Positions 6,855 to 55,880 of a DNA stretch of 64,000 nucleotides are shown here, piece by piece (positions within the stretch are counted from its first letter, which is position 1; every line of letters starts with the position of its first letter). A program made the translations under genes and the position numbers. Below the pieces are notes generated by a model, which saw nothing but the letters and a program-made list of their open reading frames with translations, made no database searches and had not been told where the DNA came from. The DNA is from Phycisphaerales bacterium (GTDB taxonomy: Bacteria; Planctomycetota; Phycisphaerae; Phycisphaerales; UBA1924), in contig CAJPFG010000004.1 in NCBI GenBank assembly GCA_905339235.1, forward strand, positions 62,001-126,000, written 5' to 3'.

Positions 6855-6869
6855 GCACCCGCGACACCG

Positions 6870-9235: not shown

Positions 9236-9328
9236 CCAGGACTCTCCTATGGTGGTCGGGGCACGATATTACTGCGTGGCCGGCCGCCTCGCAACGGTCC
9301 CTCGCAATGGCGGAGCGGGCCCAAGCCC

Positions 9329-10305: not shown

Positions 10306-10606
10306 TCTCCCGCATTCCTCTCGCGCCCTCCCATCGCTCCCTTGCTTTCCTATCGTCTCTTCTCTGCGCCCTCAGCGCCTCTGCGAGAAACTCCTCCCAG
10401 ACCCCACCGGGCGACGCGCCCGCGCAAGTCTCGCCCATCACCGCGTCCAATGTCAACCCGCTCGCCGGCCCCCACTCCACCACCGCCCGCGTCGCCGAGG
10501 TCTACGGCGTGGAAGGTGGCCCTTTCGTGCATGACGCGGCCGCCGCTCGCGTGCGGTCGCACCTTGCACCGTCCTGACGGTACCATGCCCGCCAAGGAGA
10601 GAACCC
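10306..10606 (+). other. Gap between sigma factor and DUF1801 gene; possible decayed coding segment
   Basis: No complete gene. On the plus strand one frame is open to a TGA at 10576-10578 and has strongly G/C-biased third codon positions from about 10410. It reads ...VSPITASNVNPLAGPHS... and ...RVAEVYGVEGGPFVHDA.... It has no ATG, GTG or TTG that could start the open stretch properly, so it may be a gene remnant or chance. A CTCTGCGCCCTCAGCGCC segment around 10367 resembles a low-complexity motif often found between genes in such genomes. Confidence 0.35.
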
Positions 10607-11131: not shown

Positions 11132-11201
11132 ACGCCGGGATTGAGGCGTTGAAGGTCGTCAACTCGCCCGCGCCGCGGCACACGCATCCGTAGGATTCTC
11201 A

Positions 11202-40714: not shown

Positions 40715-40723
40715 AGACCCGCC

Positions 40724-42139
40724 ATGCTCGACAGCCTTCCAACCGCCGCCTACATCCTCGCGAGCGTGCTCTTCATCCTGAGCCTGGGCGGCCTCTCCCG
40801 CCAGGAAACTTCACGCCGCGGAAATCTCCTCGGCATCATCGGAATGCTCATCGCCCTCGCGGCCACCGCGGTAAGACTCGCCGCCGGCGAAGCGTTCGGC
40901 ACTACCGGTTACGCGGCCCTGGCCGCCGCCGTCATCCCCGGCGCCGTCGTCGGCGCGGTCCTCGCCCGGCGCGTCCAGATGACCGCCATGCCCCAACTCG
41001 TCGCGATCCTCCACAGTTTCGTGGGGGCCGCCGCCGTGCTCGTCGGTATCGCTACGTTCCTCGGACCCCACTCCGAGCACATGACCCACAGCGAGCAGAT
41101 CGTTCACCTCACCGAGATCTTTCTGGGCGTTTGCATCGGCTCGATCACCTTTACCGGCTCCGTGATCGCCTTCGGCAAACTCCAGGGCTTCATCTCCGGC
41201 AAGCCCCTCATGCTCCCCGGCAGGCACCTGCTCAACCTCTTCATGGTGCTCGCCACCATCAGCCTCGGAATCTGGTTCGAGCGCACCTCCCCCGAGCAGG
41301 CCCTGCTCCCGCTGCTCATCGCCACCGCCATCACCGGCGTCCTCGGCGCCCACTCCGTAATGGCGATCGGCGGCGCCGACATGCCCGTCGTGGTCTCCAT
41401 GCTCAACAGTTACTCGGGCTGGGCCGCCGCCGCGGCCGGCTTCATGCTCGGCAACGACCTGCTCATCGTCACCGGCGCCCTCGTCGGAAGCAGCGGCGCC
41501 ATCCTCAGTTACATCATGTGCCGCGGCATGAACCGCTCCTTCATCAGCGTCATCATGGGCGGTTTCGGTACCGCCGAAGGCACCGCGCCCGCCGCCGGCG
41601 GCCCGCAGGGCGAGGTGCGTTCCATCGACGTCGCCGCCGCCACGAACCTCCTCCGCGAGTCCAAGGACATCGTCATCGTCCCCGGCTACGGCCTCGCGGT
41701 CGCCCAGGCTCAGCACGCGCTGGCCGAGGTCGTCCGGCTGGTCCGTGATCGGGGCGCCCAGGTCCGCTTCGCCATCCATCCCGTCGCGGGGCGTCTCCCC
41801 GGGCACATGAATGTCCTCCTCGCCGAGGCGAACATCCCTTACGACATCGTCCTCGAAATGGACGAGATCAACCACGACCTGCCCAAGTGCGACCTCGTCC
41901 TGGTCATCGGGGCCAACGACATCGTCAACCCCAGCGCTCAGGACGACCCCGGCAGCCCCATCGCCGGTATGCCCGTGCTCGAAGTTTGGAAGGCCGGAAC
42001 CGTCATCGTCATGAAGCGAGGCATGGCCAGCGGCTATGCCGGGGTCGATAACCCCCTGTTCTACAAAGCGAACACTCGCCTGCTCTTCGGTGACGCCCGC
42101 AAAACCGTGGACGCGCTCCTGACCGCTCTCCGCGCCTGA
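40724..42139 (+). CDS. pntB: NAD(P) transhydrogenase, beta subunit
   Basis: 471 residues. The N-terminal membrane domain II has about eight spans, with [20 protein letters not shown] and the conserved [20 protein letters not shown]. The cytoplasmic NADP(H)-binding domain III (about 295-471) shows [60 protein letters not shown] and [20 protein letters not shown]. It forms the proton channel and NADP site with PntA, supplying NADPH using the proton gradient. Confidence 0.97.
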
Positions 42140-42394: not shown

Positions 42395-43003
42395 ATGAAA
42401 CTCAGGAACCTCTGGCTCGGAACAGCCGCAATCGTCGCCTTGGCGGGGACTAACGCGTTCGGCCAGATCGGGATCTCCCGGCACAACTTCAGTTCTTACG
42501 GATGGTCGGGCGGCGAGATCTGCAAGCCGTGCCATACACCGCACTTCGCCACCATGGCATTCCCGTTGTGGAACCACGACCTCACCAACGCCACCTACAC
42601 CATGCACGAGGGCGAAGGAACGGCCGCGGCCAACATCGACAGCCGCAGCCGCATGTGCCTGGGCTGCCACGACGGAACCGTCGCGCTCGACAGTTTCGGC
42701 GGGGCTACCGGCACCAACTTCATCGGACCGCTCGGAAACGTGGGCATCGACCTGACTGACGACCACCCGATCGGCTCTGACGCGATCTACCCCACCGCCG
42801 CCAGCACCAGTTTCAACCCGCAGGACGCCAGCCACCGCGTCGGCGGCCTGCGCCTTCGCTCTTGGATCAACCCCAGCGGCGTGGAAGAGTACGTGGTGGG
42901 CTGCTCCACCTGCCACGCGGTCCACAACACCGGCAACTATGGCCACATGCTCCGCATGAGCAACGCGTCCAGCGCCCTGTGCCTGACGTGCCACATCAAG
43001 TAA
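42395..43003 (+). CDS. Exported four-haem cytochrome c
   Basis: 202 residues. The signal peptide ends near AFG|QI. Four CxxCH sites: CKPCH, CLGCH, CSTCH, CLTCH, the last four residues from the C terminus. Spacing is irregular, and the segment GIDLTDDHPIGSDAIYPT between haems 2 and 3 recurs in the N-terminal part of the 12-haem protein at 48150, so the two are related. GAGGGAAAAG lies before the start. It is first of the plus-strand redox group, separated from the rest by a terminator at 43044, and may be the most abundant small carrier. Confidence 0.93.
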   Translation: MKLRNLWLGTAAIVALAGTNAFGQIGISRHNFSSYGWSGGEICKPCHTPHFATMAFPLWNHDLTNATYTMHEGEGTAAANIDSRSRMCLGCHDGTVALDSFGGATGTNFIGPLGNVGIDLTDDHPIGSDAIYPTAASTSFNPQDASHRVGGLRLRSWINPSGVEEYVVGCSTCHAVHNTGNYGHMLRMSNASSALCLTCHIK

Positions 43004-43043
43004 CCCTCTCTTGATCGAGAGTCCCGATCCAGGGTTCTGTTGA

Positions 43044-43095
43044 GATCGCCCCGGCGCCGCAGTGGGTGCAGCCCAGCGCCGGGGTGATCCTTTTT
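43044..43095 (+). terminator. Rho-independent terminator after the four-haem cytochrome gene
   Basis: CCCCGGCGC (43049-43057) pairs with GCGCCGGGG (43076-43084), extended by GATC/GATC on both flanks (43044-43047, 43086-43089) and followed by CTTTTTG. This should end or attenuate transcription before the NHL gene at 43185. Confidence 0.88.
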
Positions 43096-43133
43096 GACGG
43101 ACGCACCCCACGGCCGCGCCAGTCGTCGCTATA

Positions 43134-43150
43134 TTGGCATCCCGTTTGTT
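43134..43150 (+). promoter_or_regulatory. Possible sigma-54-type promoter of the NHL-barrel operon
   Basis: TTGGCATCCCGTTTGTT has a perfect TTGGCA -24 element. The -12 element, ten bases on, reads TTGTT where TTGCA is usual, so the GC is degenerate (GT). The position, between a terminator and the next gene, requires some promoter here. TATATT at 43130 could instead be a -10, but no -35 fits. Confidence 0.4.
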
Positions 43151-43154
43151 CTCT

Positions 43155-43175
43155 TCCTGATGTCCCCATCAGGAG
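43155..43175 (+). promoter_or_regulatory. Hairpin covering the ribosome-binding site of the 43185 gene
   Basis: TCCTGAT (43155-43161) can pair with ATCAGGA (43168-43174) around a 6-base loop. The right arm contains the AGGAG (43171-43175) that serves the ATG at 43185, so the folded leader would hide the binding site. Confidence 0.5.
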
Positions 43176-43184
43176 CACCCCCAC

Positions 43185-44447
43185 ATGACCAGACCCTGGA
43201 ACACCCACCTGCTCCGCACCGCGCTCACCGGCTGCCTCTGCCTGCTCCTGAGCGCCTGCGCAAGCACCCCGGCCGCCGACGCACGCCCGTCGAATGCCGC
43301 CCGCTCGTACGCGTTCTGGCCGTTGTTTCCCGCCGATCCACGCATCCAGTTCCTGCGCTCTTTCGGGAGCAGCGACGACCTCGCCCCCAGGAAGGCCAGC
43401 GGGCTGGAGTCCATCGTCTTCGGCAAGGAAGTCACGCAGGAGGCCATGATCAACAAGCCCTACGGCCTGACCATGAAAGGAGGCAAGATCTACGTGTGCG
43501 ACATGCGGGCCGGCTCGCTCGTCGTGCTCGACCTACTCAAAAAGCAGACCCGCCTGGTCGGCGTGGCGGGCTCCGGCCGTCTCACTCACCCCGTGGCCGT
43601 GGCCATCGCCGATGACGGCATGATCTACGTCGCCGAGAGCGACCGCGGCGCCATCATCGTCTTCGACGCCAGAGAACGCTACTCCTACTCCATGGGCTTC
43701 CAGAAGTTCAAGCCCGTCTCTCTCGCCCTCCACGGCGACCGCCTCTACGCATGCGACATGGCAGGGCAGGTCGTCCAGATCTTCGACCGCAAATCCGGTA
43801 GTCACCTGGGATCCATCGGATCAGTGGGCGACGAGGACGGGCAGTTCCGCCTGCCCCTGGGGGTCGCCACCGACGCCGAGGGAAACGTGTACGCCGTTGA
43901 CATGATGAGGGGCCGCGTCCAGAAGTTCTCTCCCGACGGCCGGTTCATCGCCGGAGTCGGCACGATCGGTGACACGCCCGGCACGTTCGCCCGCCCCAAG
44001 CACATCGCGGTGGACGCCGACGGCATCGTCTATGTTGTGGACGCCGCGTTCCAGAACGTCCAGATGTTCGACGACCAACTCCGCCTTCTGATGGCCTTCG
44101 GCGCCGCGGGAGACTTCCCCGGGTCGATGAACCTGCCGGCCGGAATCTGCGTGGTTGAAGACGGCGCACAACTCTTCGCGGATGCCCTCCATCCGGGTTT
44201 CGCCGCCACGCGGCTCGTCGCCGTCACGAACCAGTTCGGCTCTGCCAAGGTCTCGGTCTACGCCTTGGGACAGGCACGCGAGGGATACACCGCCGCGGAC
44301 CTCGCCAAGTCCGCAGCCAAGGTCTCGCCGGGCACCGGCGCCACCCCTGACACGCTTCAACTCCAGGAACTCGGACAGGAGCCCGAGCCCACGCCGGCCC
44401 CCGCTCCCGAAGTTCAACCTACCGCCCCGCCCGTCAGCCCGAAGTAA
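43185..44447 (+). CDS. NHL-repeat beta-propeller lipoprotein (copy 1)
   Basis: 420 residues. The lipoprotein leader has lipobox LSAC (about 22-25). About five to six NHL-like blades follow, e.g. INKPYGLTMKGGKIYVCDMR, LTHPVAVAIADDGMIYVAES, FRLPLGVATDAEGNVYAVDM, and FARPKHIAVDADGIVYVVDA. The C-terminal 60 residues are Pro/Ala/Glu-rich. Shared with the second copy at 47119 are IQFLRSFGS...FGKE-type openings and blade order. Such propellers often bind partner proteins; encoded among cytochromes and a barrel, it probably holds the complex together at the outer membrane. This is inference. Confidence 0.88.
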   Translation: MTRPWNTHLLRTALTGCLCLLLSACASTPAADARPSNAARSYAFWPLFPADPRIQFLRSFGSSDDLAPRKASGLESIVFGKEVTQEAMINKPYGLTMKGGKIYVCDMRAGSLVVLDLLKKQTRLVGVAGSGRLTHPVAVAIADDGMIYVAESDRGAIIVFDARERYSYSMGFQKFKPVSLALHGDRLYACDMAGQVVQIFDRKSGSHLGSIGSVGDEDGQFRLPLGVATDAEGNVYAVDMMRGRVQKFSPDGRFIAGVGTIGDTPGTFARPKHIAVDADGIVYVVDAAFQNVQMFDDQLRLLMAFGAAGDFPGSMNLPAGICVVEDGAQLFADALHPGFAATRLVAVTNQFGSAKVSVYALGQAREGYTAADLAKSAAKVSPGTGATPDTLQLQELGQEPEPTPAPAPEVQPTAPPVSPK

Positions 44448-44465
44448 TCACGGAGACGATCGCGG

Positions 44466-45086
44466 ATGTCCCGCATACGCGGCCGCCCCCCTGCACATCA
44501 CCGCGGAGCCCGTGTGGCCGCGGGGCTTCTCGCGGTGGGACTTCTCGCCCTCGCGGCGTGGCCGGGCTGCACCGTCACCAAAACAAACTACCGGACGCTC
44601 AGTTTCTTCTTCGACGGCGTCCCCGACCCCGACCTTCCCACCGGCTCCATCGACCCCGCCACCGGCGCCGTCCGCGCCGTCGCCAGCCTCTCCGTTCATC
44701 CTCCCTACGCGGAGGAAAAATGCAGCGAGTGCCACAAGTCGCGCCTCCGCATGTCCAGGAATGACTCGGGCCTCTGCGCCAACTGCCACGCCGGAAAAAG
44801 CAGCGAGCACCAACGCATGCACGGCCCGGTCGCGGCGGGCGCGTGCTTGTGGTGCCACCACCCCCACGAATCCGCGCAGAAACACCTGCTCCGCGACAAT
44901 GACCGCGCCGTCTGCTCGCAATGCCACACGCCTCGCCTGCTGAACTCCGTCCGGGTCCCCGAGCACGCCGATGAGTCCCGCGCATGTTTGGAGTGCCACG
45001 TCGGCCACGGGGGGGACAGGCCGTTCCTGCTCCGCCAGGACGCCGCCACGGCCCAAACGCCCCCCGCGACTCCGGAGGCCCCATAG
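44466..45086 (+). CDS. Five-haem cytochrome c, probable lipoprotein
   Basis: 206 residues. The leader (about 18-36) ends AAWPGCTVT; its Cys could be lipidated, although the lipobox is imperfect. Five CxxCH sites follow in doubled-CxxCH style: CSECH, CANCH, CLWCHHPH, CSQCH, CLECHVGH, with HGPVAAGACLWCHHPH resembling the repeat unit of the large cytochromes at 49764 and 53638. It is placed directly before the barrel gene (5 bases between), so it may be the haem wire inserted in or attached to the barrel. Confidence 0.9.
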   Translation: MSRIRGRPPAHHRGARVAAGLLAVGLLALAAWPGCTVTKTNYRTLSFFFDGVPDPDLPTGSIDPATGAVRAVASLSVHPPYAEEKCSECHKSRLRMSRNDSGLCANCHAGKSSEHQRMHGPVAAGACLWCHHPHESAQKHLLRDNDRAVCSQCHTPRLLNSVRVPEHADESRACLECHVGHGGDRPFLLRQDAATAQTPPATPEAP

Positions 45087-45091
45087 CCCTC

Positions 45092-47104
45092 GTGCGCGCA
45101 CGCCCCCTCCAACTCCTGCTCGCGGCGGCCGCCACGGCCTCGGCCGCGCACGCGCAGAAAGCCACCGACGATGGTCCCGTCGTCGTCGGCGAGAGCCGGG
45201 GTCACTGGAAAGCCTTCGATCTGCAACGGCTCAACGCGGGCATCGAGTTCCTCGGGCGACACCGCTCCGACAAACTCTCCGTGAGCAACGAACCCGACCG
45301 CACCGACACCGAGACCCTCCTGCGCGAACTCTTCGGCATCTCCGGCCAGGCGTACATCGGGCACAAAAACCTCATCGACCTCACCGGCAGCGCCCGTCTG
45401 GGGCTCGAAGACCGCTTCCTCGACAGCGACACCCTCGGTGCCCAGGATCACAGCAGCGACTTCTCCAATCTGTTCGATCTCAACGCCCACTTCCTCGCCA
45501 ACAGCAAGGTCCCCTTCGACCTCTACACCCGACGTGAAGAGCAGTTCCTCGACCAGGACTTCTCCTCCTCCCTCACCACGACCACCTTCGAAACTGGCGC
45601 CGCGGCCCACATCCAGTCGGGCCGCGCACCCACCAACATCCGCGCCTTCCACCTCGAAACCGACCAGAACGACCAACTCGGACTGTTCGACTACTCCCTC
45701 GTGCAGAACACCTTCGCCGCCCAGTCGAACCTCGTGATCTCCGAGCGGCACCGTCTCGAGGTCCAGTATTCCTTCGACGACGTCAGCGAAACTCGCCCCG
45801 GCGGCTTTGAGAATGACTATCTCCGTCACGATCTCCTTCTGTCCGACGTCCTCAACTTCGACGCCAAACTCCCCCGCGAACTGCGGTCCTATCTCCGGTA
45901 CTTCAACCAGGACGGCGACTCCGGACAGGAAATCCTCCGACTCGACGAGCAACTTCTCCTCACGCACACCGATCGGTTCGAGTCGCGGTACAACTTCTCC
46001 GCCGAGCGACAGGCCCGCGGCGACGCCGATCAGAGCACCGTCCGCGGGTCGGCCCTCCTTCGGCACAAACTGTTCGAAAGTCTCGTCAGCACGGGCTCGG
46101 TCGGCGGACAGTGGCTCTCCTCCTCCTCCGACTTCACCAGCAACGAGTGGTTCGTGCAGGGCGGGCTCGAGTACACCAAGAAAGTGCCCAGGGGCCGCCT
46201 GAACGCCAGCATCGGCGGCACGTTCACTACGCAGCACAACGGCGAGCAGGGCGGCACGCTCGTGGTCATCGACGAACCGCACACCTTCAACGACCCCTTC
46301 CCGATCATCCTCTCTCGCCGCAATATCGTGCAGGGCTCGGTCGTGGTGACCGCCGCAGGCGGGTTCCCCACCTATCAGGAAAACGTCGAGTACACCATCG
46401 ACTACTTCGCCGACCGGGCGGAGATCCGCGTCATCGTCGGCTCGGGAATCTCCGATGGCCAGACCCTCCTCATCGACTACGACGTTGGGCCCGTACCCGC
46501 CTCCGACATCGACACGCTCTCACTCACCGCCTCGGCCCGATACACCGTCTCGGAGGGCTACCTGCGAGGCATCTCCATCTACTCGATCTACCGCTCGCAG
46601 GACCACAGCCTCGACGCCGCCGACCCCAGCCGTTTCGTCCTCGACGACACCACGAACCTCCTCTACGGCATCGAATACCGGCGAGAGGGCCTCCACCTCC
46701 GCGCCGAGCGCGAGAGCCACGACAGCACCGTCAACCCCTACGACACCACCCGGCTCCAGGCGTTCTACGACTACCGCTTCTCCCGCGGCTCGTCCCTCGG
46801 GCTCGATGCCACCCACGAGATCATCGACTACACCGATCCTGTCAATCAGGTGACGTTTTCCCGTCTCAGCGCCCGCTGGAACCAGAAGGTCGCCCGGGAG
46901 TTCGACCTCACCCTCCGAGTGGATTTTCGCGACGAATCCAACGATCTCCGAGGCGACACTCAGGGCATCGATCAGAGCCTCTCGCTCCGGTGGCGCCGCC
47001 GCCAGACCTCCGCCTACGCCACCATCCGAAACACGCTCCTCGAAACAGGAGAATCCGACAGAGTTTCGCAGTTCTTTGAGTTGGGCCTTCGGAGGGACTT
47101 CTAA
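45092..47104 (+). CDS. Outer-membrane beta-barrel protein of the cytochrome cluster
   Basis: 670 residues from a GTG start with GGAGG 13 bases upstream. A signal peptide (LQLLLAAAATASAAHA) leads into repeated amphipathic strands, e.g. RHRLEVQYSFDDVS, YLRYFNQDGD, RFESRYNFSAERQARGD, GGQWLSSSSDF and LRAERESHDST. The last residues, FFELGLRRDF, end in Phe as in outer-membrane assembly signals. It has no CxxCH and no N-terminal CxxC like that of MtrB. About 20 or more strands are possible. Position between the 5-haem lipoprotein and NHL/12-haem genes suggests a porin that lets electrons cross the outer membrane, as MtrB/PioB/OmbB do. A TonB-independent porin for solutes is the alternative. Confidence 0.82.
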   Translation: MRARPLQLLLAAAATASAAHAQKATDDGPVVVGESRGHWKAFDLQRLNAGIEFLGRHRSDKLSVSNEPDRTDTETLLRELFGISGQAYIGHKNLIDLTGSARLGLEDRFLDSDTLGAQDHSSDFSNLFDLNAHFLANSKVPFDLYTRREEQFLDQDFSSSLTTTTFETGAAAHIQSGRAPTNIRAFHLETDQNDQLGLFDYSLVQNTFAAQSNLVISERHRLEVQYSFDDVSETRPGGFENDYLRHDLLLSDVLNFDAKLPRELRSYLRYFNQDGDSGQEILRLDEQLLLTHTDRFESRYNFSAERQARGDADQSTVRGSALLRHKLFESLVSTGSVGGQWLSSSSDFTSNEWFVQGGLEYTKKVPRGRLNASIGGTFTTQHNGEQGGTLVVIDEPHTFNDPFPIILSRRNIVQGSVVVTAAGGFPTYQENVEYTIDYFADRAEIRVIVGSGISDGQTLLIDYDVGPVPASDIDTLSLTASARYTVSEGYLRGISIYSIYRSQDHSLDAADPSRFVLDDTTNLLYGIEYRREGLHLRAERESHDSTVNPYDTTRLQAFYDYRFSRGSSLGLDATHEIIDYTDPVNQVTFSRLSARWNQKVAREFDLTLRVDFRDESNDLRGDTQGIDQSLSLRWRRRQTSAYATIRNTLLETGESDRVSQFFELGLRRDF

Positions 47105-47118
47105 GATTGATCCATCCC

Positions 47119-48153
47119 ATGCGCCTTTCACTCGTCATCCTCCCCCTCCTGCTCGCCTGTCTGACCGCCTGCACCAGGCCCGCGGGCGTCCTGTTCGAGC
47201 CCGCAAGTTCCGTGCACGCCTGGCCCACCCCGCCCGACGAGGCCCGGATCCGCTACGTCGGCGAGATCCGCAGCGAGAGCGATCTCAAGCCCGCCCGCGG
47301 CGTGGGCGAATCCATCGGCCGCTTTCTCTTCGGAAAGGAGACCCCCAAGGGCATGGTCGGCCCGCTCGGAGTCTGCACCGACGGCGGTGACCTCGTCTTC
47401 ATCGCCGACCCCAACGCTCAGACCCTCCACGTCTTCGACCTCGCGTCGCGCCGATACCGCCAGTGGACGCCCCCGCCCAAGAGCCCTCGGTTCGTGCAAC
47501 CGATCGCCGTTGCCTTCGACGCCGGCCGCGTGCTCGTCTCCGACTCCGCGGCCGGGGTGATCTTCGAGTTCGACACCAAGGGAGTGTTCCGTGGTCTGCT
47601 CGGCGAGGGCGTCCTCCAGCGCCCCTGCGGATTGGCCGTCGAACCCGGCAGCGGCAACATTTTCGTCGCCGACGCCGCCGCTCATCAGATCGTCGTCCTT
47701 TCTCCCGACGGCACCGAATCGGCACGCATCGGCTCACGCGGCCAGGACGCCGGACGATTCAACTTCCCCACCTACGTCGCTTTCGACAGCCGCGCCCGCC
47801 TCTACGTCTCTGATTCCCTCAACTTTCGCGTGCAGGTCTTCGGCCCGCACGTGGAGTTCATCCGCGAGATCGGCCGAAAGGGCGATATGCCCGGTTACTT
47901 TGCCCAACCCAAGGGCATCGCCCTGGACCCCGAAGACCACCTGTACGTGGTGGACGCCAACTTCGAAGCCGTTCAGGTCTTTGATCCGGACGGAAACCTG
48001 CTCATGACCTTCGGCCACGAAGGGCGCGGCCCGGGAGAGTTCTGGCTGCCCGTCGGAATCTCCGCCGACCCGAAGGGCCGGCTCTGGATCGCCGATTCAT
48101 ACAATCGAAGAGTCCAGGTCTTCCAATACCTGCCCGCCGGAGGAAACCCATGA
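47119..48153 (+). CDS. NHL-repeat beta-propeller lipoprotein (copy 2)
   Basis: 344 residues. Leader MRLSLVILPLLLACLTACTR with lipobox LTAC. Six blades fill the rest: LGVCTDGGDLVFIADPNAQT, IAVAFDAGRVLVSDSAAGVI, CGLAVEPGSGNIFVADAAAH, YVAFDSRARLYVSDSLNFRV, GIALDPEDHLYVVDANFEAV, and GISADPKGRLWIADSYNRRV. It lacks the long Pro-rich tail of copy 1. The two copies flank the 5-haem protein and the barrel. Its stop overlaps the start of the 12-haem gene (ATGA), so the two products are probably made in fixed ratio. Confidence 0.9.
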   Translation: MRLSLVILPLLLACLTACTRPAGVLFEPASSVHAWPTPPDEARIRYVGEIRSESDLKPARGVGESIGRFLFGKETPKGMVGPLGVCTDGGDLVFIADPNAQTLHVFDLASRRYRQWTPPPKSPRFVQPIAVAFDAGRVLVSDSAAGVIFEFDTKGVFRGLLGEGVLQRPCGLAVEPGSGNIFVADAAAHQIVVLSPDGTESARIGSRGQDAGRFNFPTYVAFDSRARLYVSDSLNFRVQVFGPHVEFIREIGRKGDMPGYFAQPKGIALDPEDHLYVVDANFEAVQVFDPDGNLLMTFGHEGRGPGEFWLPVGISADPKGRLWIADSYNRRVQVFQYLPAGGNP

Positions 48154-49757
48154 ACTGGCATCTGTGCATGGCGATCGCCGGCGCCCTCACCTTCGCCGCC
48201 AACGCCCAACCCACCAGCGTGGTTGGAGGGCCCCACAACCTCTCCGCCGGGGGCCCCGGCAGGGTGCGCGCCGTCAACGAGAGCGAGGTGTGCATCTTCT
48301 GCCACGCCCCGCACAACGCAGCCCCCATCCGCCCGCTGTGGAACCGATCCATGCCCGCGGACGCGTACTCCATCTACACCAGCCGCGCCCTCGACGCCGT
48401 CCCCGGCCAGCCCACCGGTACCTCAAAGATGTGCCTTTCCTGCCACGACGGCACGATCGCCCTCGGGGCCATCGTGTCGCGCGACATGCCCATCGCCATG
48501 GCCGGCGGAGTCTCCACCATTCCCACCGGCCCCGGACACATCGGCACCGACCTTCGCGACGATCACCCAATCTCCTTCCGATTCGACTCCTCCCTCGCCG
48601 GGCAGGATCCTCACCTCCGAAACCCCTCTTCCCTCCCCCCCCAAGTCCGCCTCGACGCGAATCAGGAACTCCAGTGCACGGCATGCCACGACGCCCATGA
48701 CAACTCCATGGGCGATTTTCTGGTCATGCAGAACTCCGCCTCACAACTCTGCCTCTCCTGCCACAACGTCGGCTCGACCACCGTGACCGCGCACAACTCC
48801 TGCAACGCTTGCCACCAGCCCCACACGGCCCCCAGCGGCCCCTACCTGCTCCGGGGCGCCACCATCGCCGACACCTGCGTGCGCTGCCACAACGGAACCA
48901 TGCCCGGCGCCGCCAACATCCAGGACGACCTGAACAAGGCCTGGTCCCACGACACCCACAGCGAGATGGACCCTCCCGACCCCCAACGCGATCACGCCTC
49001 CTGCGTCAGTTGCCACGACCCGCACACCATGTCCCCCGGCCCCGGGAGCGCGCCCTCCGTGCATCCCAACTTCGGCCGGATCGACGGAGTGAACTCCTCG
49101 GGCGCTCCCGTGACAGTCGCCTCCGCCGAAGGCGAGGTGTGCTTCAAGTGCCACGCCGACGGCTCGACCATCGCCCCTCTCGTCCCCCGTCGCATCGCCC
49201 AGAACAACACCCGCCTGGAGTTCCATCCCGGCGCGGTCTCGTTCCACCCCGTGCTCGCGACCGGCCGAAACCCCGACGTGCCCAGCCTCAAGCCCGGGTG
49301 GACCACCTCCAGCATCATCTACTGCAGCGACTGCCACGCCTCCGAGACCGGCGAGTCGGCGGGCGGCTCGGGCCCCAGCGGCACGCACGGGTCGAACTTC
49401 CGCGCACTCCTCTCCGCCAGGTACGAGACGACCGACAATATCTCCGAAAGCGCCAGCACGTACGCGCTGTGCTACCGCTGCCACGATCGGGCCAGCCTCC
49501 TCGACGACCGCTCGTTCAAGGAGCACAAGAAGCACATTCAGGAAGAGCGCACGCCCTGCGCCGCCTGCCACGACTCGCACGGCATCGCGTCGTCGCAGGG
49601 AAACTCGACCAACAACAGCCACCTCATCAACTTCGCCACCAACATCGTCCAGCCCGACCCGGTCACCGGCCGTCTCGAGTTCCGCGATCTGGGATCGGCC
49701 CGGGGCGAGTGCTACCTCCGGTGTCACGGCGAGAACCACTCTCCCGAGCGGTACTGA
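48150..49757 (+). CDS. Exported 12-haem cytochrome c
   Basis: 535 residues with a signal peptide ending ANA|QP. Eleven CxxCH sites (CIFCH, CLSCH, CTACH, CLSCH, CNACH, CVRCH, CVSCH, CFKCH, CSDCH, CYRCH, CAACH) and a final CYLRCH (C-X3-CH). The first 130 residues are related to the four-haem protein at 42395 (GTDLRDDHPISFRFDSS). The central part uses doubled-CxxCH repeats (CHQPH, CHDPH). There is no membrane segment beyond the leader, so it is periplasmic or surface-exposed. The plus-strand operon ends here, 6 bases from the end of the opposing operon. Confidence 0.93.
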   Translation: MNWHLCMAIAGALTFAANAQPTSVVGGPHNLSAGGPGRVRAVNESEVCIFCHAPHNAAPIRPLWNRSMPADAYSIYTSRALDAVPGQPTGTSKMCLSCHDGTIALGAIVSRDMPIAMAGGVSTIPTGPGHIGTDLRDDHPISFRFDSSLAGQDPHLRNPSSLPPQVRLDANQELQCTACHDAHDNSMGDFLVMQNSASQLCLSCHNVGSTTVTAHNSCNACHQPHTAPSGPYLLRGATIADTCVRCHNGTMPGAANIQDDLNKAWSHDTHSEMDPPDPQRDHASCVSCHDPHTMSPGPGSAPSVHPNFGRIDGVNSSGAPVTVASAEGEVCFKCHADGSTIAPLVPRRIAQNNTRLEFHPGAVSFHPVLATGRNPDVPSLKPGWTTSSIIYCSDCHASETGESAGGSGPSGTHGSNFRALLSARYETTDNISESASTYALCYRCHDRASLLDDRSFKEHKKHIQEERTPCAACHDSHGIASSQGNSTNNSHLINFATNIVQPDPVTGRLEFRDLGSARGECYLRCHGENHSPERY

Positions 49758-49763
49758 TCCCCA

Positions 49764-51161
49764 TCACCTCGCCGGCGAACCCATCGCCGGCGCGGGCGTG
49801 TCCCGGTCGTACGCCGCCGGCTTGTGGCACCCCGGCGCGCACGACCCGCCCGTCGGCGTTTTCATGTAGTTCAGCGGCAGGTTCCACTGCCCGAACGACA
49901 CGTTGTCCGCGATCATCGTCTCGAACCGGCTCGCATGCACCGTGTGGCACGCGCGGCAACTGCGCCCCTGCGACGTCTTGTTCACATGCACCGCGTGCAG
50001 GTTCCTCGCGCCGTTGCGGAAGCCCGTCTCCTTCTCCGGGCTCTCCGCCAGCACCAGCGCCCGGTCGTGGCACTTGAAGCACAGCGCATACGCGCTGTCA
50101 GAGTACTGTTGATAGAACGACTGCTCGTACGGCTGCACCAGCAGCCCCTCGTTCATCCCCCCGTGCACGTCGTGGCACGCCGCGCACTCACCCTTCTCGA
50201 TCGGCCCGTGCTTATGGAACGCGGCCACCGTCAACTCCCCCGCCGCCGGAATCGTCCGGTCCTTGTCCACGACTATCGGCTTCTGGTGGCACTCCATGCA
50301 TGCGCCCACCGGGTCCTTGAGCAACTGCATCGCGTGATCGCTCCCGTGCGCCGCGTGGCAGTTCAGGCACGCCTTCGCGTCGGTCACCGCACCGTGCGGG
50401 TGCGTCGCCGCGGCCATCGCTTTTCCCACCGGCTCGTGGCACGAAATGCACAGGTCCTTGGGGTTGTTCTTCAGAATCTTCGTCTCGTTGGACGCGTGCG
50501 GCGTGTGGCACTGCGTGCAGTCTCCCTCCACGGGCTTGTGCGCGTGCGAAAAGCCGGAGATTGACTTGCCCACATCCTCGTGACAACTCAGGCACAGCGC
50601 CCGCTTCTCCATCGTCAGCAGTTTCTCGTGATCCGACGTGTGCGGCTGGTGACACGCCGCGCAGTTCTCCGCCGCCGGCTTGTGCGCGTGCGAGCCCTTC
50701 ATTGTGTCCTGATGGCACGACAGGCACAACTCCCCCATCGTCGCCTTCTTGAGCATCCGCGTGGTCTCGGAACCGTGGGGATCATGACAGCCCGTGCACT
50801 CCCCCTTCGCAACCGGCTGATGCACGAACGCCCCTTCCGTGCCCGACTTGTCGATGTGGCAAAAATCGCACAGCCCGCGGCCCTCGCGCTTCAGCAGGAA
50901 TGCGTGTTTCGCCGGGTCCTGGTACTCGTGACACGCGTCGCACGCCGAAACCGCCGTCGGCCCGTGCAGGTACTTGTGGTTCAGTTCCTTGGCATGGCAC
51001 CCCGAGTTCGTGCAGTCCAGCACCTTGGTCGTGGGGGTCGTCGTGGGGGTGATGGTGGGGGTCGTGGGGGTCGTGGGGGGCGTGGGGGGCGTGGGGGGCG
51101 TCTGCGCGCCCGCCAGCGACGCGACCGACACCAGGGCCATGGCCGCAACCCATCGCGTCAC
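49764..51161 (-). CDS. Exported 15-haem cytochrome c with Thr/Pro-rich N terminus
   Basis: 465 residues. The signal peptide ends LAGA|Q. Residues 21-46 form a Thr/Pro tract (encoded at 51027-51101) that may act as a spacer. Then about seven copies of a HGPV...G.C..CHDPHGS...L...P..LC..CH unit give 13 CxxCH sites. CTNSGCH (C-X4-CH) precedes them and CAPGCH (C-X3-CH) ends the series. The C-terminal part RNLHAVHVNKTSQGRSCRAC...GGSCAPGCHK recurs in the 53638 protein, so the two are paralogues. Its start overlaps the stop of the NapC-type gene, the last step of this operon. Confidence 0.93.
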   Translation of the reverse strand: MTRWVAAMALVSVASLAGAQTPPTPPTPPTTPTTPTITPTTTPTTKVLDCTNSGCHAKELNHKYLHGPTAVSACDACHEYQDPAKHAFLLKREGRGLCDFCHIDKSGTEGAFVHQPVAKGECTGCHDPHGSETTRMLKKATMGELCLSCHQDTMKGSHAHKPAAENCAACHQPHTSDHEKLLTMEKRALCLSCHEDVGKSISGFSHAHKPVEGDCTQCHTPHASNETKILKNNPKDLCISCHEPVGKAMAAATHPHGAVTDAKACLNCHAAHGSDHAMQLLKDPVGACMECHQKPIVVDKDRTIPAAGELTVAAFHKHGPIEKGECAACHDVHGGMNEGLLVQPYEQSFYQQYSDSAYALCFKCHDRALVLAESPEKETGFRNGARNLHAVHVNKTSQGRSCRACHTVHASRFETMIADNVSFGQWNLPLNYMKTPTGGSCAPGCHKPAAYDRDTPAPAMGSPAR

Positions 51162-52603
51162 GGTGTCCCCTCCTTCTTCGCGCGTTCACCCGCCAACACG
51201 TCCCGCGCCTGCTCCAGGAGCAACTGCGTGTACCGTGGATTGTGAACACCCCAACTCCCATCGGTCTTCACCAGGTTCAGCAGTTTGCGCACCCGCTCCA
51301 GCGCCTCCGCGTTCGCCCCGCCGCTCTCCGCCACCCGCAGCCCGGCCTCCACCTGGTCGTACAGCCCGTGCGTGGTCTTCTGCCACAGCGGGATCATCTT
51401 TTCCCCGAAGCCCGCCTGGTGGCACTGGTTGCACGCCGCGGGCTCCGCCGCCATGACGCTCGCGCCGCTGTCCGGCTTCACGCTCACCGGCCGCTGCTTG
51501 GTGTGACATCCCGTGCAATCCACGTGCGCCAGAAACATCGGGCTCACAGGCTGACTCTCGGGCGAGCCATGGTGATTCTCACCGAGATTGAAGTACGTGT
51601 CGCGCTGCACCCGGTGCTGATCCACGTGACAGCGGTTGCAATCGAAACTCTCCAGCGAGGCGGTCTGCACGTGCGGACCGTGCCGCACGTTCCCGTGACA
51701 ACTCGAGCACTCGATCTTGTGGTGGCCGAGCGTGTGCACCTTGTGCATTTCTTTGCTCTCCAGCACCCGCTCCACCCCGAACGTGTGACACTCCAGGCAC
51801 CGTCCATCCTCGATCGGAGGCGGCACCGCCGTCACCCCCTGGTGGCACGACTCGCACGAAGCGCCAAACGCCAGGAACTGCGCGTGATCGAACTTCAGGC
51901 CTTGAAACTCGATCTCTCCCCTCGGTGGATCATGACACGCCGTGCACGCCGCAGGCGGGGTCTTCTCACCGTTCCCCGATTCCGCCGGCGCCGGGTGCCC
52001 CGCCCCGTTGCTCCGCACCGTCAGGTAGATGACCTTCGTCTCCCGCCCGCTCACCGTCTCGGTCCCGCCGGTCGCCCCGTCCAGCAGGTGGCAAGTGATG
52101 CACACCGTGGTGTTGACCTCGAAGTGCTCATCGCCCTTCACGTGCGAGTGGCACGTCCCGCACGAAATCTCCACGCCCAGGTGCTTGGCCCCCAGATGCT
52201 TGGCGTGGTCGAACTTGAACCGCCCGTTGTCGATCGTCTTTTTTTCGAGCGTCTCGACCGAGTGACACCCCGACCGCGTACAGGACAACTGGCTGACCGA
52301 GGCCGACGGCTTCGTCGAAGTTCGGTGCAGCACGTCGTCCACGACCTGCCCCAGGCCGTTGAGTTTCGCCGCGATGAAGTTGTCCACCCCCGGCGAGATA
52401 TGGCACTGCACGCACTCCACGTCCTTGTGCGCGCTGTGCTTCCAACTCGTGTAGTACGGCTCCATGATGTGGCAGGAGTTGCAGAACGAACTCCGCGAAG
52501 TCGCCTCGACGCTGATGGTCCCCAGCAGGGCCATCGCCACCCCGCCGGCGAGAATCCACTTTCCCCACCGGCGGAATCTCAGTCGATCAAGAATCGCTCG
52601 CAT
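51158..52603 (-). CDS. Membrane-anchored 12-haem cytochrome with NapC/NrfH-type N terminus
   Basis: 481 residues. After a basic start, one span (about 13-34; WGKWILAGGVAMALLGTISV) leads into FCNSCHIMEPYYTSWKHSAH and ECVQCHISPGV, the pattern of NapC/NrfH/CymA quinol dehydrogenases where CxxCH-x-Met ligates the first haem. In total there are 11 CxxCH plus CTRSGCH (C-X4-CH). The rest is periplasmic, with HAKHLG/HAQFLA segments that may supply distal His ligands. It probably oxidises menaquinol and passes electrons to the operon's soluble cytochromes. A NapC head joined to so many further haems is larger than CymA (four). Confidence 0.9.
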   Translation of the reverse strand: MRAILDRLRFRRWGKWILAGGVAMALLGTISVEATSRSSFCNSCHIMEPYYTSWKHSAHKDVECVQCHISPGVDNFIAAKLNGLGQVVDDVLHRTSTKPSASVSQLSCTRSGCHSVETLEKKTIDNGRFKFDHAKHLGAKHLGVEISCGTCHSHVKGDEHFEVNTTVCITCHLLDGATGGTETVSGRETKVIYLTVRSNGAGHPAPAESGNGEKTPPAACTACHDPPRGEIEFQGLKFDHAQFLAFGASCESCHQGVTAVPPPIEDGRCLECHTFGVERVLESKEMHKVHTLGHHKIECSSCHGNVRHGPHVQTASLESFDCNRCHVDQHRVQRDTYFNLGENHHGSPESQPVSPMFLAHVDCTGCHTKQRPVSVKPDSGASVMAAEPAACNQCHQAGFGEKMIPLWQKTTHGLYDQVEAGLRVAESGGANAEALERVRKLLNLVKTDGSWGVHNPRYTQLLLEQARDVLAGERAKKEGTP

Positions 52604-52621
52604 GCGGGCTCCCGGGTAGTC

Positions 52622-53641
52622 CTATCGCGCGAGCAGCAACTCGGCGGCCTTACGGTATTCACACGACGCCCCCGCGGCATCGCCCCCCTTCTCCCGAATC
52701 CGCCCCAGCAGGTAGTGGGCCCGCGCGTTGGATGGGCTCTTCTCGATCACGCCGCGCACTGATCCCTCCGCGAGAGCCAACTCTTCGTCGCCCCTCTCCA
52801 CCCGGACCGCCGCCAACCCCAGAATTGCCTCCAGCGAATCCGGGTGATTCGTCAGGATCGACTTGAAAAACGGCTCCGCGTCCCCAAGCCGACTCTGCTT
52901 CAGCATCAACTCACCAAGCCCCAACTTGGCCTCCACGCTGTCCGGGGCCAGCGCGATCGCTTCCGCGTACCTCGCCTCCGCCATCTCGAACAACCCGTGC
53001 CGCGCCAACTCCCCCCCCAACTTCACCAGCCGCGCCGCCCGCGTCGCCTCCGGGCTCGCGTGCGGCGCCGCGCCCGCGTCCACCAACTGGTCCAGTTTCT
53101 CCACCGCGTGCTTCCCCGCCGCCACCAGCACCGCCTCCGCCAGAATCTCCTTGAACCGCGGCACGAATCCCGGCATCGCGTACGTCACCTTCGCGTGACC
53201 ATCCACCACCACCACCGTCGGAACCACCAGCACGCGATACGCCCCGAACGCGTCCCGCTTGGGGTCCTGCAGCACGATCGCCGGGAACCGCCCCTGCGCC
53301 GCCTCCTCCTTCAGTCGCGTCGGTTCCGTGTCCTGCGCCACGATCATGATCGGAACCACGCTCCCGGGCTCCACCCGGGCATCCGCCAGCACATCCATCA
53401 CGTCCGAACACGCCTGCTTCACCCCGTCGTGCCCGAACTCACCGAACACCAGCACCAGCGTCCGCGACGAGAGATCCTTCGTGCTCACCAGCGTCCCGTC
53501 GAGGTCTTTCAGCCGGATCGGCGGCGCATCCGATCCCCGCGGCGGCAACGCCCCGCCCGCATCCGCGGCGCCCACGAGCGCGCCCAGGACAACCGCCCCT
53601 CGCACCAGCGCCGCGCCCAACCTCGCGATCACCCTGTTCAT
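52622..53641 (-). CDS. Exported redoxin-fold protein with TPR repeats
   Basis: 339 residues. A signal peptide (ending ADA|GG) is followed by an AhpC/TSA-like thioredoxin fold (about 30-185): PPIRLKDLDGTLVSTKDLSS, LVLVFGEFGHDGVKQACSDV, VPIMIVAQDTEPTRLKEEAA, and VVPTVVVVDGHAKVTYAMPG with the cis-Pro. The active-site CxxC is absent: only one Cys follows the strand, in KQACSD. TPR units (about 205-335; RYAEAIALAPDSVEAKLGLG, FFKSILTNHPDSLEAILGLA) complete it. It lies between two cytochrome genes and may assist assembly or delivery of apocytochromes rather than act as a disulfide reductase. Confidence 0.85.
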   Translation of the reverse strand: MNRVIARLGAALVRGAVVLGALVGAADAGGALPPRGSDAPPIRLKDLDGTLVSTKDLSSRTLVLVFGEFGHDGVKQACSDVMDVLADARVEPGSVVPIMIVAQDTEPTRLKEEAAQGRFPAIVLQDPKRDAFGAYRVLVVPTVVVVDGHAKVTYAMPGFVPRFKEILAEAVLVAAGKHAVEKLDQLVDAGAAPHASPEATRAARLVKLGGELARHGLFEMAEARYAEAIALAPDSVEAKLGLGELMLKQSRLGDAEPFFKSILTNHPDSLEAILGLAAVRVERGDEELALAEGSVRGVIEKSPSNARAHYLLGRIREKGGDAAGASCEYRKAAELLLAR

Positions 53642-55059
53642 GGCGTTCCCTCACTTGGCTTCAACGTGCCCTTGATCGGCGGCAGCAGCGTCCGCCGCGA
53701 GTATTCCTTCGCCTGATGACACCCCGGCGCGCACGAACCGCCCTCCTGCGTCGCCTGGAAGTTGATCTCCAGCAGCCACCCGCCCGTCCCGAACGGCACC
53801 GCCTCCCGCACGTGCGACGGCCGCTTGGACGCATGTACCTCGTGGCACGCGCGGCACGTCCGACCCTTCTCCTGATTCACATGCAGGTAGTGCAGGTTCC
53901 TGTCCCCGTCGCGAAACTGCGTCAACCCCTGCCCCGACGGCTTCAGCACCAGATCGGGAATATGGCACTTGAAGCACAACTTAAACGTCCCCATGTCGAA
54001 CGGGGCGTAGAACTGCGGCGGATAGTCCTCGACCAGCAGCCGGAAGTGATCGCCCGCGTGCGCGCTGTGGCACGCCGTACACATCCCGTCGCGGATCGGG
54101 CCGTGATGGTCCGGGTTCTGCTGCAGCAACTGCGACATGTTCGCCAGTTCCGAGCCGTCCGCCGTCTTGAATGTCTTGTCGTGGCACGAAAGACACAACC
54201 CCGGCTGCGTGTCGCGCTGCAGGCTCGCCAGCCGCGACCCGTGCGGCTCGTGGCACCCCGTGCACCCGTTCTCGACCGTCACCGCCCCGTGCACGACCTT
54301 CGCGTTCCCCACCATCTCCTGGAACTTCTCGCGATGGCACGAAAGGCACAACTCCGGCGCCTGCTCTCGCAACTGAAACTTGTGGCTCGACGCGTGCGGA
54401 TCATGACACTGCGTACACCCGTCGTCCAGCGCCCCGTGCTTGTGCATCCCCGCCGCCTCCGCCTTCTCCGCCACCTCCGCGTGGCAGGTCAGGCAGAGCG
54501 CCCGCGGCTCCTGCACCAGCAGTTTCGGTTGCGGCGACGAATGCGGCTGGTGACACACGATGCACGCCCCAACCGCCACCGGGCCGTGTACAAACTTCTG
54601 CCCTTCAAAGTTCTTCTGGTGGCACTTCAGGCACAACTCCCGCTTCGGGTCCGCCACCAGCATCCGCCGATACTCCGACCCGTGCGGGTCATGACACTGC
54701 ACGCACTGCCCCTCGCGCACCGGCACATGCTCGGTCCCCGAGTGCGGCAGTTCGTGGCATCGCTTGCACAACTCGTTCTTGGGCTTGATCAGGTAGAACT
54801 TGTGATCCGCCGGATTCCCCTGAACGTGGCATGCCCCGCAGTCGCTCAACGCCGGCCCGTGCATCACTTTGTGATTGAATATCTCCTGATGGCACTCCTT
54901 CGCGCACGTCCGCATCGCCGCTTCGCTGATCTTCGCATCCTGCCCCGCCGCCGACCCCGCGAACCACAACACCCCCGCGACCACGCACCCACGCCATACC
55001 CCGGCGCGAATCCTCGGCAGCCACGTGCGCGCACATTCCATAGACCACCGACTGCACAT
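53638..55059 (-). CDS. Exported 15-haem cytochrome c, paralogue of the 49764 product
   Basis: 473 residues from the ATG at 55059; an ATG at 55041 would also preserve the signal peptide (CVVAGVLWFAGSAAG|Q), whereas the upstream TTG at 55101 is unlikely. Thirteen CxxCH sites lie in HGPV.VG.C..CHQPHSS-type repeats, with CAKECH first and CAPGCH last (both C-X3-CH). The ending GRTCRACHEVHASKRPSHVR and GGSCAPGCHQAKEYSRR parallels the 49764 protein. It starts the minus-strand operon and its stop overlaps the next gene's start. An AT-rich stretch at 55100-55130 probably holds its promoter, but I cannot define the boxes. Confidence 0.93.
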   Translation of the reverse strand: MCSRWSMECARTWLPRIRAGVWRGCVVAGVLWFAGSAAGQDAKISEAAMRTCAKECHQEIFNHKVMHGPALSDCGACHVQGNPADHKFYLIKPKNELCKRCHELPHSGTEHVPVREGQCVQCHDPHGSEYRRMLVADPKRELCLKCHQKNFEGQKFVHGPVAVGACIVCHQPHSSPQPKLLVQEPRALCLTCHAEVAEKAEAAGMHKHGALDDGCTQCHDPHASSHKFQLREQAPELCLSCHREKFQEMVGNAKVVHGAVTVENGCTGCHEPHGSRLASLQRDTQPGLCLSCHDKTFKTADGSELANMSQLLQQNPDHHGPIRDGMCTACHSAHAGDHFRLLVEDYPPQFYAPFDMGTFKLCFKCHIPDLVLKPSGQGLTQFRDGDRNLHYLHVNQEKGRTCRACHEVHASKRPSHVREAVPFGTGGWLLEINFQATQEGGSCAPGCHQAKEYSRRTLLPPIKGTLKPSEGTP

Positions 55060-55202
55060 GCCGTGCCAGCCGCTCCACCCATCGGACCCGCACGTCGGCA
55101 ATAATTAGGACAATCTATTCCCATTTGTGAGAGTCGGACTTGCCACGAACTCCCGGATCCGGGAGCCAACCTCAAGACGGCTCATTAAGACCTCCGGTCC
55201 GA

Positions 55203-55270: not shown

Positions 55271-55879
55271 ATGAAACGCCTGGCCGTGCTTCTCTCCGCA
55301 GTGTCGCTGTTCGGCGTGCTCGGGGCCATGCAGCCCAAGCAGCCCGAAAAGCCAGCCAACGTTCCCGCCGGGCACCCGCAGATCACCATCCCCAAAATCG
55401 GGGAAAACTGGCCCACGGCCAAGCCCGAAGACGTCGATTCAGTGGACGCCATCATCAAGGCCTTCTACGACGCGCCAGCCGGCGCCCCCGGCCAGCCCCG
55501 CGATTGGGGCCGCTTCCTTTCCCTCTTCGTGCCCGACGCCCGGTTGATCGCCGCCCGCCCCGGCCCCGAGGGCTCCTCCGGCGCCATGTTCCTTCCGGCC
55601 CCCGACTACGTCGAGGCCAACAAGACCTACTTCGAAAAGGGCGGCTTCCGCGACACGGAAATCGGCCGCCGCGTCGAAACCTTCGGCAATATGGTCCACG
55701 TCTGGAGCACCTACGAATCGCGCCGCAAGGCCGACGATCCTGCCCCCTACATCCGCGGCATCAACAGCCTGCAACTGCTCAAGGACGGCAAGCGCTACTG
55801 GATCGTCAACGCCTACTGGGACTACGAACGTGAGGACAACCCCCTTCCCGAGAAGTACGTGGGAATGCCCAAGGAGTAG
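55271..55879 (+). CDS. Exported NTF2/SnoaL-like protein
   Basis: 202 residues. A signal peptide (MKRLAVLLSAVSLFGVLGAM) and a Pro/Lys-rich spacer come first. An NTF2-fold domain of about 130 residues follows: VDSVDAIIKAFYDAPAGAPG, RDWGRFLSLFVPDARLIAAR, MVHVWSTYESRRKADDPAPY, and INSLQLLKDGKRYWIVNAYW. AAGGAGAT fixes the start. It is one base from the ATG of the NtrC-type gene (stop at 55879, ATG at 55881), so a structural protein and a regulator are co-produced. A periplasmic ligand-binding input for the sensor kinases is conceivable but unproven. Confidence 0.82.
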   Translation: MKRLAVLLSAVSLFGVLGAMQPKQPEKPANVPAGHPQITIPKIGENWPTAKPEDVDSVDAIIKAFYDAPAGAPGQPRDWGRFLSLFVPDARLIAARPGPEGSSGAMFLPAPDYVEANKTYFEKGGFRDTEIGRRVETFGNMVHVWSTYESRRKADDPAPYIRGINSLQLLKDGKRYWIVNAYWDYEREDNPLPEKYVGMPKE

Positions 55880-55880
55880 C

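Follow-up and report, generated by a model that had tools for sequence, protein, structure and literature searches.

How cytochrome nanowires are anchored in the membrane, and where electrons enter and leave them, are named as key challenges in a 2025 review (PMC12307469), and a ten-gene cluster from a bacterium of the Phycisphaerales (Planctomycetota) raises the same question at a single locus. The cluster occupies positions 42395-55059 of a stretch of 64,000 nucleotides, hereafter the window, in an assembly of 4.55 Mb that is 93.7% complete, and it probably codes for an extracellular electron-transfer machine of the undecaheme electron transfer complex (Uet) class that ends in an OmcE-type cytochrome nanowire. 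The computed basis of this reading consists of the homology of a small cytochrome (g1) and of the head of a larger one (g6) to nanowire subunits of solved structure, an outer-membrane barrel predicted to be wide (g4), the conserved linkage of the genes concerned, and their co-occurrence among genomes.

A first-pass annotation had described ten genes on two converging strands with stops six bases apart, an arrangement that was confirmed (stops at 49757 and 49764), the open reading frames being taken stop-to-stop, so that some lengths are overestimated. Its haem counts of 4, 5, 12, 15, 12 and 15 were likewise upheld by motif scans (g1 4; g3 5; g6 11 + 1; g7 13 + 2; g8 11 + 1; g10 13 + 2), the last four totals holding only with CX3CH and CX4CH motifs counted in addition to CxxCH, and Pfam recognised cytochrome c domains in all six cytochromes. 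Motif and Pfam scans also bore out the barrel ending in phenylalanine, the two NHL lipoproteins, the redoxin-TPR protein and the NapC-headed 12-haem protein, while searches of the ten proteins at the curated NCBIfam cut-offs returned nothing except a generic doubled-CXXCH domain. Overlooked at that stage were OmcE-type nanowire domains in the 4-haem protein and in the head of the 12-haem protein g6.

Nanowire-type domains in g1 and g6

The first gene of the cluster, g1 (42395..43003, + strand), codes for a UetA-like 4-haem cytochrome of 202 aa, a predicted extracellular filament subunit. Searched against PDB sequences, it matched 9yuq_N at E 3e-19 and 7tfs_A at E 5.4e-12, and the next match listed was not significant. 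The 7tfs entry is the OmcE nanowire of Geobacter sulfurreducens (PMC12954529), and alignment of residues 25-202 with residues 26-232 of 7TFS indicated whole-chain homology. Five histidines (H30, H50, H61, H124 and H177) were invariant among 16 aligned sequences, and the four histidine columns outside CxxCH that align with OmcE, namely an N-terminal His and those of CHxPH, DHP and CHxxH, were occupied in 104, 106, 108 and 108 of 108 four-haem homologues. Like OmcE, 100 of these 108 proteins place the last haem motif two residues before the chain end, and g1 likewise stops two residues past its final CxxCH. In OmcE a haem takes a histidine ligand from the adjacent subunit (PMC12203936, PMC9473688), and the four conserved histidines are candidate bis-His and inter-subunit haem ligands.

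The same domain recurs at the head (48150..48767, + strand) of g6 (48150..49757, + strand), a UetJ-like 12-haem cytochrome with 11 CxxCH motifs and one CX3CH. Residues 8-206 matched 7tfs (E 2.7e-31) and 9yuq (E 9.2e-22), and the head was also recognised by the g1 profile (E 2.3e-23). An AlphaFold2 model of g6 built from 45 sequences (predicted local distance difference test score, pLDDT, 84.9; predicted TM-score, pTM, 0.80) aligned with 7TFS over 176 residues (root-mean-square deviation 2.5, Z 14.3); OmcS came next, with Z 3.4. Throughout the 45 aligned sequences the cysteines and histidines of the haem motifs were invariant, as were other histidines including those that match OmcE. On account of the homology to 7TFS and 9YUQ, the model alignment and the matching histidines, g6 is read as an OmcE-like unit followed by an 8-haem tail, and as such it may cap or anchor the filament. 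Neither g1 nor g6 was found in the plasmids searched. Within the literature searched, the homology of g1 to OmcE and 9YUQ and the OmcE-like head on the 12-haem protein are both new.

Judged by this homology g1 would polymerise, although homology is no proof of polymerisation and a recent review stresses that the roles of monomer and polymer are unsettled (PMC12307469). Alternatively, g1 could remain a monomer that docks on g6 and acts outside the cell as a terminal reductase or oxidase; this is unlikely, given that the two nearest solved homologues are OmcE, a filament, and 9yuq, an entry with 16 chains, and that the N-terminal His and the CHxPH, DHP and CHxxH histidines are all conserved. With the OmcE nanowire itself (7TFS) g1 shares its four haems, sequence homology, histidine signature and chain end at the last haem motif. 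Where the two differ is in genome context, as far as this is covered, omcE being GSU0618 and ppcA with a biogenesis pair GSU0612-0614 (PMC2700814).

The barrel and the cytochrome slot upstream of it

The barrel gene g4 (45092..47104, + strand; UetC-like, with a probable GTG start) codes for a large outer-membrane beta-barrel that has no cysteine, ends in phenylalanine and belongs to no credible Pfam family. Modelled as the mature barrel with AlphaFold2 from 44 sequences (pLDDT 91.9, pTM 0.78), it shows 28 long strands by our own count; with that number and strand tilts of 37-43 degrees, a textbook formula puts the radius at 24.6-26.9 Å. MtrB (6r2q_B) gave the top TM-score among the 50 Foldseek rows listed (0.46 both ways), and in VIA-align it had the most aligned residues among the listed rows (435, Z 15.6). 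The first-pass annotation had suggested comparison with the MtrB/PioB family, but its profile PF11854 did not match g4 by hmmscan to E 0.1, nor anything else in the same genome; over the cut-off it was absent from all 101 genomes described below, the single sub-threshold match (19 bits) being in genome G098. MtrAB was dropped as a label because PF11854 was unmatched. Searched against PDB sequences, a profile of the barrel gave a single match (E 1.9), and the protein concerned seems unrelated. The model also has a conserved small beta insert separating strands 17 and 18 (residues 364-449; window about 46244-46501), in the region of which an NCBIfam phage tail tube model scored a sub-threshold 27.4 bits (cut-off 60); the insert is possibly an outer docking platform.

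Directly 5' of the barrel gene stands g3 (44466..45086, + strand), coding for a 5-haem lipoprotein with an FFFDGVP motif. Its best PDB match was MtrA (6r2q_A) over residues 198-326, the C-terminal half (E 9.4e-7), and a 10-haem protein occupying the same slot in a relative (locus L071) matched MtrA too (E 7.9e-7). To judge by its sequence and position, g3 may be threaded inside g4 as a haem plug. The slot was scored for 84 barrels (83 distinct) from all loci by looking up to 600 bases upstream for the closest cytochrome gene on the same strand, and one was present for 67 of them; the number of haem motifs varied (5 in 50, 9 in 6, 10 in 4, 3 in 2, 6 in 2, and 4, 8 and 15 once each) while the slot stayed constant, and an FFDG-type motif was common to 47 of the 67, in proteins of 5 to 15 haems. 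An apparent natural fusion of a 5-haem cytochrome with the barrel in genome G060 (L064) was rejected as an artefact, the two genes being separated by a run of N.

NHL propellers

Two further genes code for NHL propellers with signal peptides that read as lipobox-like: g2 (43185..44447, + strand; Pfam NHL E 1.5e-14), which follows g1, and g5 (47119..48153, + strand; E 7.1e-28), which follows the barrel; both are UetH/I-like. With g5 as query, the only strong matches in the 4.55-Mb assembly were g5 itself (787 bits) and g2 (153 bits), the third reaching 35 bits. Of 20 related loci, 19 have the g5 homologue adjoining the 12-haem gene, and the twentieth (L068) is cut on that side. Among the sample of loci described below, drawn from the best 80 of 571 matches, no part accompanied OmcE-like genes more constantly than the propeller (65 of 72 loci).

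In two loci of Phycisphaerae (L143:3578-6001 and L195:3809-6886, both on the - strand), the first propeller (NHL1) runs in frame into an octahaem cytochrome; the L143 fusion was also scanned with Pfam. In six further loci (L131, L132, L141, L169, L174 and L189) genes of their own code for homologues of the octahaem part. The fusion speaks for a propeller and a conduit cytochrome acting next to each other.

Conservation and spread

Co-occurrence was assessed in 101 genomes, comprising that of the window and 100 relatives, at E <= 1e-3 for the barrel and E <= 1e-10 for g6 and g1. The barrel was found in 21 genomes and the 12-haem g6 in 20, all within those 21, the exception being G087 (78% complete). 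The 4-haem profile matched the same 20 genomes; in two of them, G069 and G080, the 12-haem head is the sole match, which leaves a stand-alone g1 in 18. The order of the + strand genes (4-haem, NHL1, 5-haem, barrel, NHL2, 12-haem) was intact in 15 of 20 related loci. L065 is a module cut by a contig end. L070-L072 share a variant layout: the lipoprotein has 10 haems instead of 5, NHL1 is encoded on the other strand, and the 4-haem gene is absent from its slot. Phylum-wide, the 12-haem profile was matched in 25 of 392 genomes (E <= 1e-10), nearly full length in 19. Among 20 stretches retrieved from genomes with a match, many held the same module, its lipoprotein having 5 haems or, in L116 and L119, 9 haems and a position away from the barrel. 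The contigs of L118 and L122 are short, and L125-L128 contain no more than module fragments that lack a barrel.

Further afield, hidden Markov models (HMMs) built from 20 planctomycete loci and the window were used to find the parts in 79 loci, a sample rather than a census, taken from the best 80 of 571 confirmed matches to an OmcE-like query (9yuq first). The loci were thus selected by their OmcE-like domains, short contigs hide parts of some, and the phylum labels were assigned by us, those of metagenome bins such as Bacillota being possibly wrong. All five parts were present in 36 of the 79, and the core of barrel, 12-haem protein and propeller in 42, from ten phylum-level groups, the counts by label being Bacteroidota 10/16, Gammaproteobacteria 7/11, Betaproteobacteria 1/3, unspecified Proteobacteria 3/3, Planctomycetota 7/7, Verrucomicrobiota 4/4, Calditrichota 2/3, Ignavibacteria/Chlorobi 3/3, Nitrospirota 2/2, Gemmatimonadota 1/2, KSB1 1/1 and Aminicenantes 1/1. 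A tree of 74 g6 proteins placed the window inside planctomycete groups (4 rows, 100/95; 14 rows, 100/99), and Planctomycetota did not form one clade (4 changes), a split that possibly reflects transfer or old duplication. A novelty specific to planctomycetes was ruled out by the occurrence of related modules in many phyla.

Two loci of the same sample carry giant frames directly after the OmcE-like gene, replacing the barrel module: one of 57 + 14 haem motifs in Geothermobacter hydrogeniphilus (L157:10750-19011, + strand) and one of 31 + 4 (L180:10671-14837, + strand).

Comparison with known systems

The system had been put forward as possibly unreported, a claim that fell when its make-up was found to match the published Uet (PMC10734462, PMC12575090), with related modules in many phyla. 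First described in Tenderiales by Eddie et al. 2022, Uet comprises the undecahaem UetJ, the tetrahaem UetA, the trihaem UetDEG, the peptidylprolyl isomerase UetB, the NHL proteins UetHI and the barrel UetC (PMC10734462); the cluster, named uetABCDEFGHIJ, occurs in some iron-oxidising Gallionella (PMC12575090), and undecahaem clusters are mentioned elsewhere too (PMC13386937, PMC13264449). Four kinds of part correspond: the 11-12-haem UetJ to g6, UetA to g1, UetC to g4 and UetHI to g2 and g5. The window was set against the Uet of Tenderia and Gallionella by published descriptions, while sequences were compared with two Uet-like gammaproteobacterial loci (L130 and L133), whose genes, in the order NHL, 4-haem, 3-haem, 3-haem, barrel, NHL and 11 + 1-haem, were matched by the HMMs described above. 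Full-length g6-type homologues there scored 449 and 401 bits, the g4 HMM scored 139 and 178 bits on their barrels, and the g1 homologues adjoin the other parts. Unlike Uet, the window has a single 5-haem lipoprotein where Uet has the trihaem UetDEG, and its facing operon adds two 15-haem proteins, the NapC-headed 12-haem protein and the redoxin-TPR protein. A link between Uet and OmcE was not found in the literature searched, the text available of PMC12575090 naming both unconnected and that of PMC10734462 being without OmcE; the original Uet, OmcE and ubiquity papers lay outside the search.

With MtrCAB, MtoAB and PioAB the cluster shares a large barrel and an MtrA-like multihaem protein, in a 10-haem version in relatives L070-L072. 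It differs from them in its barrel, which lacks an MtrB_PioB match, in the 5 haems of g3 as against a decahaem MtrA-type plug, in outer cytochromes that are of the OmcE type and not the MtrC type, and in the added propellers. The Osc cluster of Geobacter, compared by description only, is alike in accompanying a nanowire gene with companions. Shen et al. 2025 are said to describe OscD as propeller-like and OscEFG as channel-like. Unlike the window's cluster, Osc serves the hexahaem OmcS, for the folding, secretion and morphology of which it is proposed (PMC13194489).

Evidence against the reading and other roles for the barrel

A number of observations weigh against a Uet-class conduit that ends in a nanowire. 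The ten genes include no trihaem cytochrome and no peptidylprolyl isomerase domain, both of which Uet has, the rest of the genome lying outside the search for the latter; with the Uet core present and these parts missing, the cluster is a Uet-class variant rather than a strict member. MtrB stood at rank 36 by Foldseek E-value, after TonB-dependent receptors, LptD and ushers, and at rank 4 by VIA-align Z, after FecA (17.2) and two OprC entries; the likeness of the modelled barrel to MtrB is one of size and fold only, and is not proof of kinship. An upstream cytochrome was not found for 17 of the 84 barrels, and in L141 and L161 the one found is OmcE-like and not a plug, so that 65 of 84 remain without these two. 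Among the 17, L064 has the run of N, L113 is close to the end of its contig, the 9-haem gene of L116 and L119 stands elsewhere, L143 and L195 carry the propeller-octahaem fusion, L068 is without a cytochrome, and NHL1 stands directly upstream of the barrel in L131, L135, L164, L174, L189, L200 and others. Across the 79 loci the core was found in none of the remaining 13 labels (Acidobacteriota 0/5, Aminicenantes apart; Deltaproteobacteria 0/4; Zixibacteria 0/2; Bacillota 0/2), and 24 of the 72 loci with OmcE-like genes had no barrel, some of them with full 10-kb flanks (L142, L157). Lastly, L068 of genome G087 holds the barrel and NHL2 only: its uncut side lacks the 4-haem, NHL1 and 5-haem genes, the 12-haem side lies beyond the contig end, a haem-free FFDGVP stretch precedes the barrel in one open frame (G087:C75, 1164-4280, - strand), and neither the g6 nor the g1 profile matched anywhere in that genome.

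These observations bear on two other roles for the barrel. Were it an ordinary solute porin, adjacent to the cytochromes by chance, the many transporters that beat MtrB in fold-search E-value would be accounted for, as would the barrel of G087 found without g6, g1 or an adjacent cytochrome. The barrel was nevertheless accompanied by g6 in 20 of 21 genomes, g6 was never found without the barrel among the 101, and the linkage holds in ten phylum-level groups, which together render a chance association highly improbable. A barrel without the cytochromes, which the first-pass annotation had held to count against a conduit, was thus encountered once among the 20 relatives (G087) and not in the others.

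The barrel and propellers could alternatively form an Osc-like machine for nanowire secretion or assembly, electrons entering the filament elsewhere and the barrel never holding a haem chain. The osc cluster with omcS offers a precedent, in which OscH is proposed to act in folding OmcS, OscE, F and G in secreting it, and OscD in giving it its shape (PMC13194489), and the constancy of the propeller beside OmcE-like genes (65 of 72 loci), the ushers and LptD among the fold matches, and the haem-free stretch before the barrel of G087 all fit such a role. Set against it are the constant slot with its multihaem protein upstream of 67 of 84 barrels (65 without the OmcE-like two), the match of both tested upstream cytochromes, g3 and a 10-haem protein, to MtrA, and the best TM-score of MtrB among the 50 rows listed, and on balance it is improbable that the barrel serves secretion in place of conduction. 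The first-pass proposal of a barrel-plus-multihaem outer-membrane conduit in a planctomycete finds support in the linkage, the co-occurrence and the barrel model.

The facing operon and the direction of electron flow

The facing operon holds the four genes on the - strand. The 15-haem g7 (49764..51161; 13 CxxCH, one CX4CH and one CX3CH), a proposed periplasmic wire, scored 139 bits with the DmsE-type model TIGR03508, under its cut-off of 192, and its best PDB match was MtrA (6r2q_A, E 1.4e-19, partial). The membrane-anchored 12-haem g8 (51158..52603), a proposed quinol dehydrogenase and inner-membrane feeder, has a NapC/NrfH head: Pfam recognised its NapC/NirT region (Cytochrom_NNT, E 2.3e-8), residues 20-126 matched NrfH 2j7a (E 1.1e-5), and the C-terminal part matched 6i5b (E 2.3e-7). 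A redoxin-like domain (AhpC-TSA, 28.2 bits against a cut-off of 26) and TPR_19 (43.6 bits) were found in g9 (52622..53641), which has two cysteines but no CxxC and is proposed as a maturation or assembly factor. The second 15-haem cytochrome, g10 (53638..55101 as the longest frame, with an internal ATG at 55059), gave Paired_CXXCH_1 at E 6e-65, and its second-type motifs are two CX3CH.

The idea that all ten genes are conserved as a unit held for the six + strand genes, ordered in 15 of 20 related loci, but not for this facing operon. Within fetched stretches of up to 20 kb, some of them cut, 15-haem genes lay close to the module in 12 of 20 relatives (split over two frames in L056), a NapC-headed gene in 8 of 20, and a redoxin-TPR homologue above 60 bits in 4 of 20, the profile of the last scoring low beyond close relatives.

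Combined with the conduit, these proteins suggest a chain in which quinol would be oxidised by g8, electrons would pass by way of the 15-haem wires g7 and g10 to the 5-haem g3 inside the g4 barrel, and g3 would reduce g6, on the outside, through which they would reach a g1 polymer whose subunits carry four haems each. As predicted outer-membrane lipoproteins, the propellers (g2, g5) may clamp plug and base, guide filament assembly, or both.

The same parts could run in reverse and import electrons from Fe(II), a cathode or partner cells. A NapC/NrfH head such as that of g8 usually belongs to a quinol oxidiser, which speaks for outward flow; so does the RuBisCO large subunit not being found in the 93.7%-complete assembly, in a search that left other CO2-fixation routes aside. 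Haem-copper oxidases are present in the genome. Uet, on the other hand, comes from cathode-oxidising Tenderiales and iron-oxidising Gallionella (PMC10734462, PMC12575090), and uptake is consequently a serious contender, albeit the less probable of the two directions.

Adjoining genes and a second multihaem cluster

Translations read by eye placed pntA/pntB-like transhydrogenase genes immediately 5' of the nanowire operon (window 39143-42139, + strand) and an NtrC-type response regulator, a candidate regulator, on the other side of the cluster (window 55830-57263, + strand). A stretch overlapping the final 1000 bases of the window (L074, G000:C4:125000-140000) holds a 7-haem-motif frame that crosses the window's right edge (1-1284) and a 6-haem protein (7823-8746) with a weak g1-profile match of 30.5 bits; 6-haem genes lie close to the module in several relatives as well. 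Elsewhere in the same genome, a second multihaem cluster (L073, G000:C37:17000-36900, at 3881-11245) codes for two multihaem proteins with cytochrome-b-like membrane parts, by translation, followed by two 15-haem proteins like g7 and g10, and it may feed the same conduit.

Significance

The genes for a nanowire-like subunit, for a protein headed by the same domain and for a barrel of predicted large width, next to an MtrA-like protein, lie together and recur in the same genomes, which makes the anchoring of nanowires a testable question. We propose, as a possibility evenly balanced, that nanowires have their missing membrane base in the 12-haem proteins of the UetJ type, the head acting as a permanent first subunit and the 8-haem tail resting on a propeller-clamped barrel with an interchangeable plug. 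With the survey, the range of Uet-class gene sets grows to include Planctomycetota, Bacteroidota, Verrucomicrobiota, Calditrichota, Nitrospirota and others; were the proposal true, OmcE-type wires would be plugged into the outer membrane across many phyla, the Planctomycetota included.

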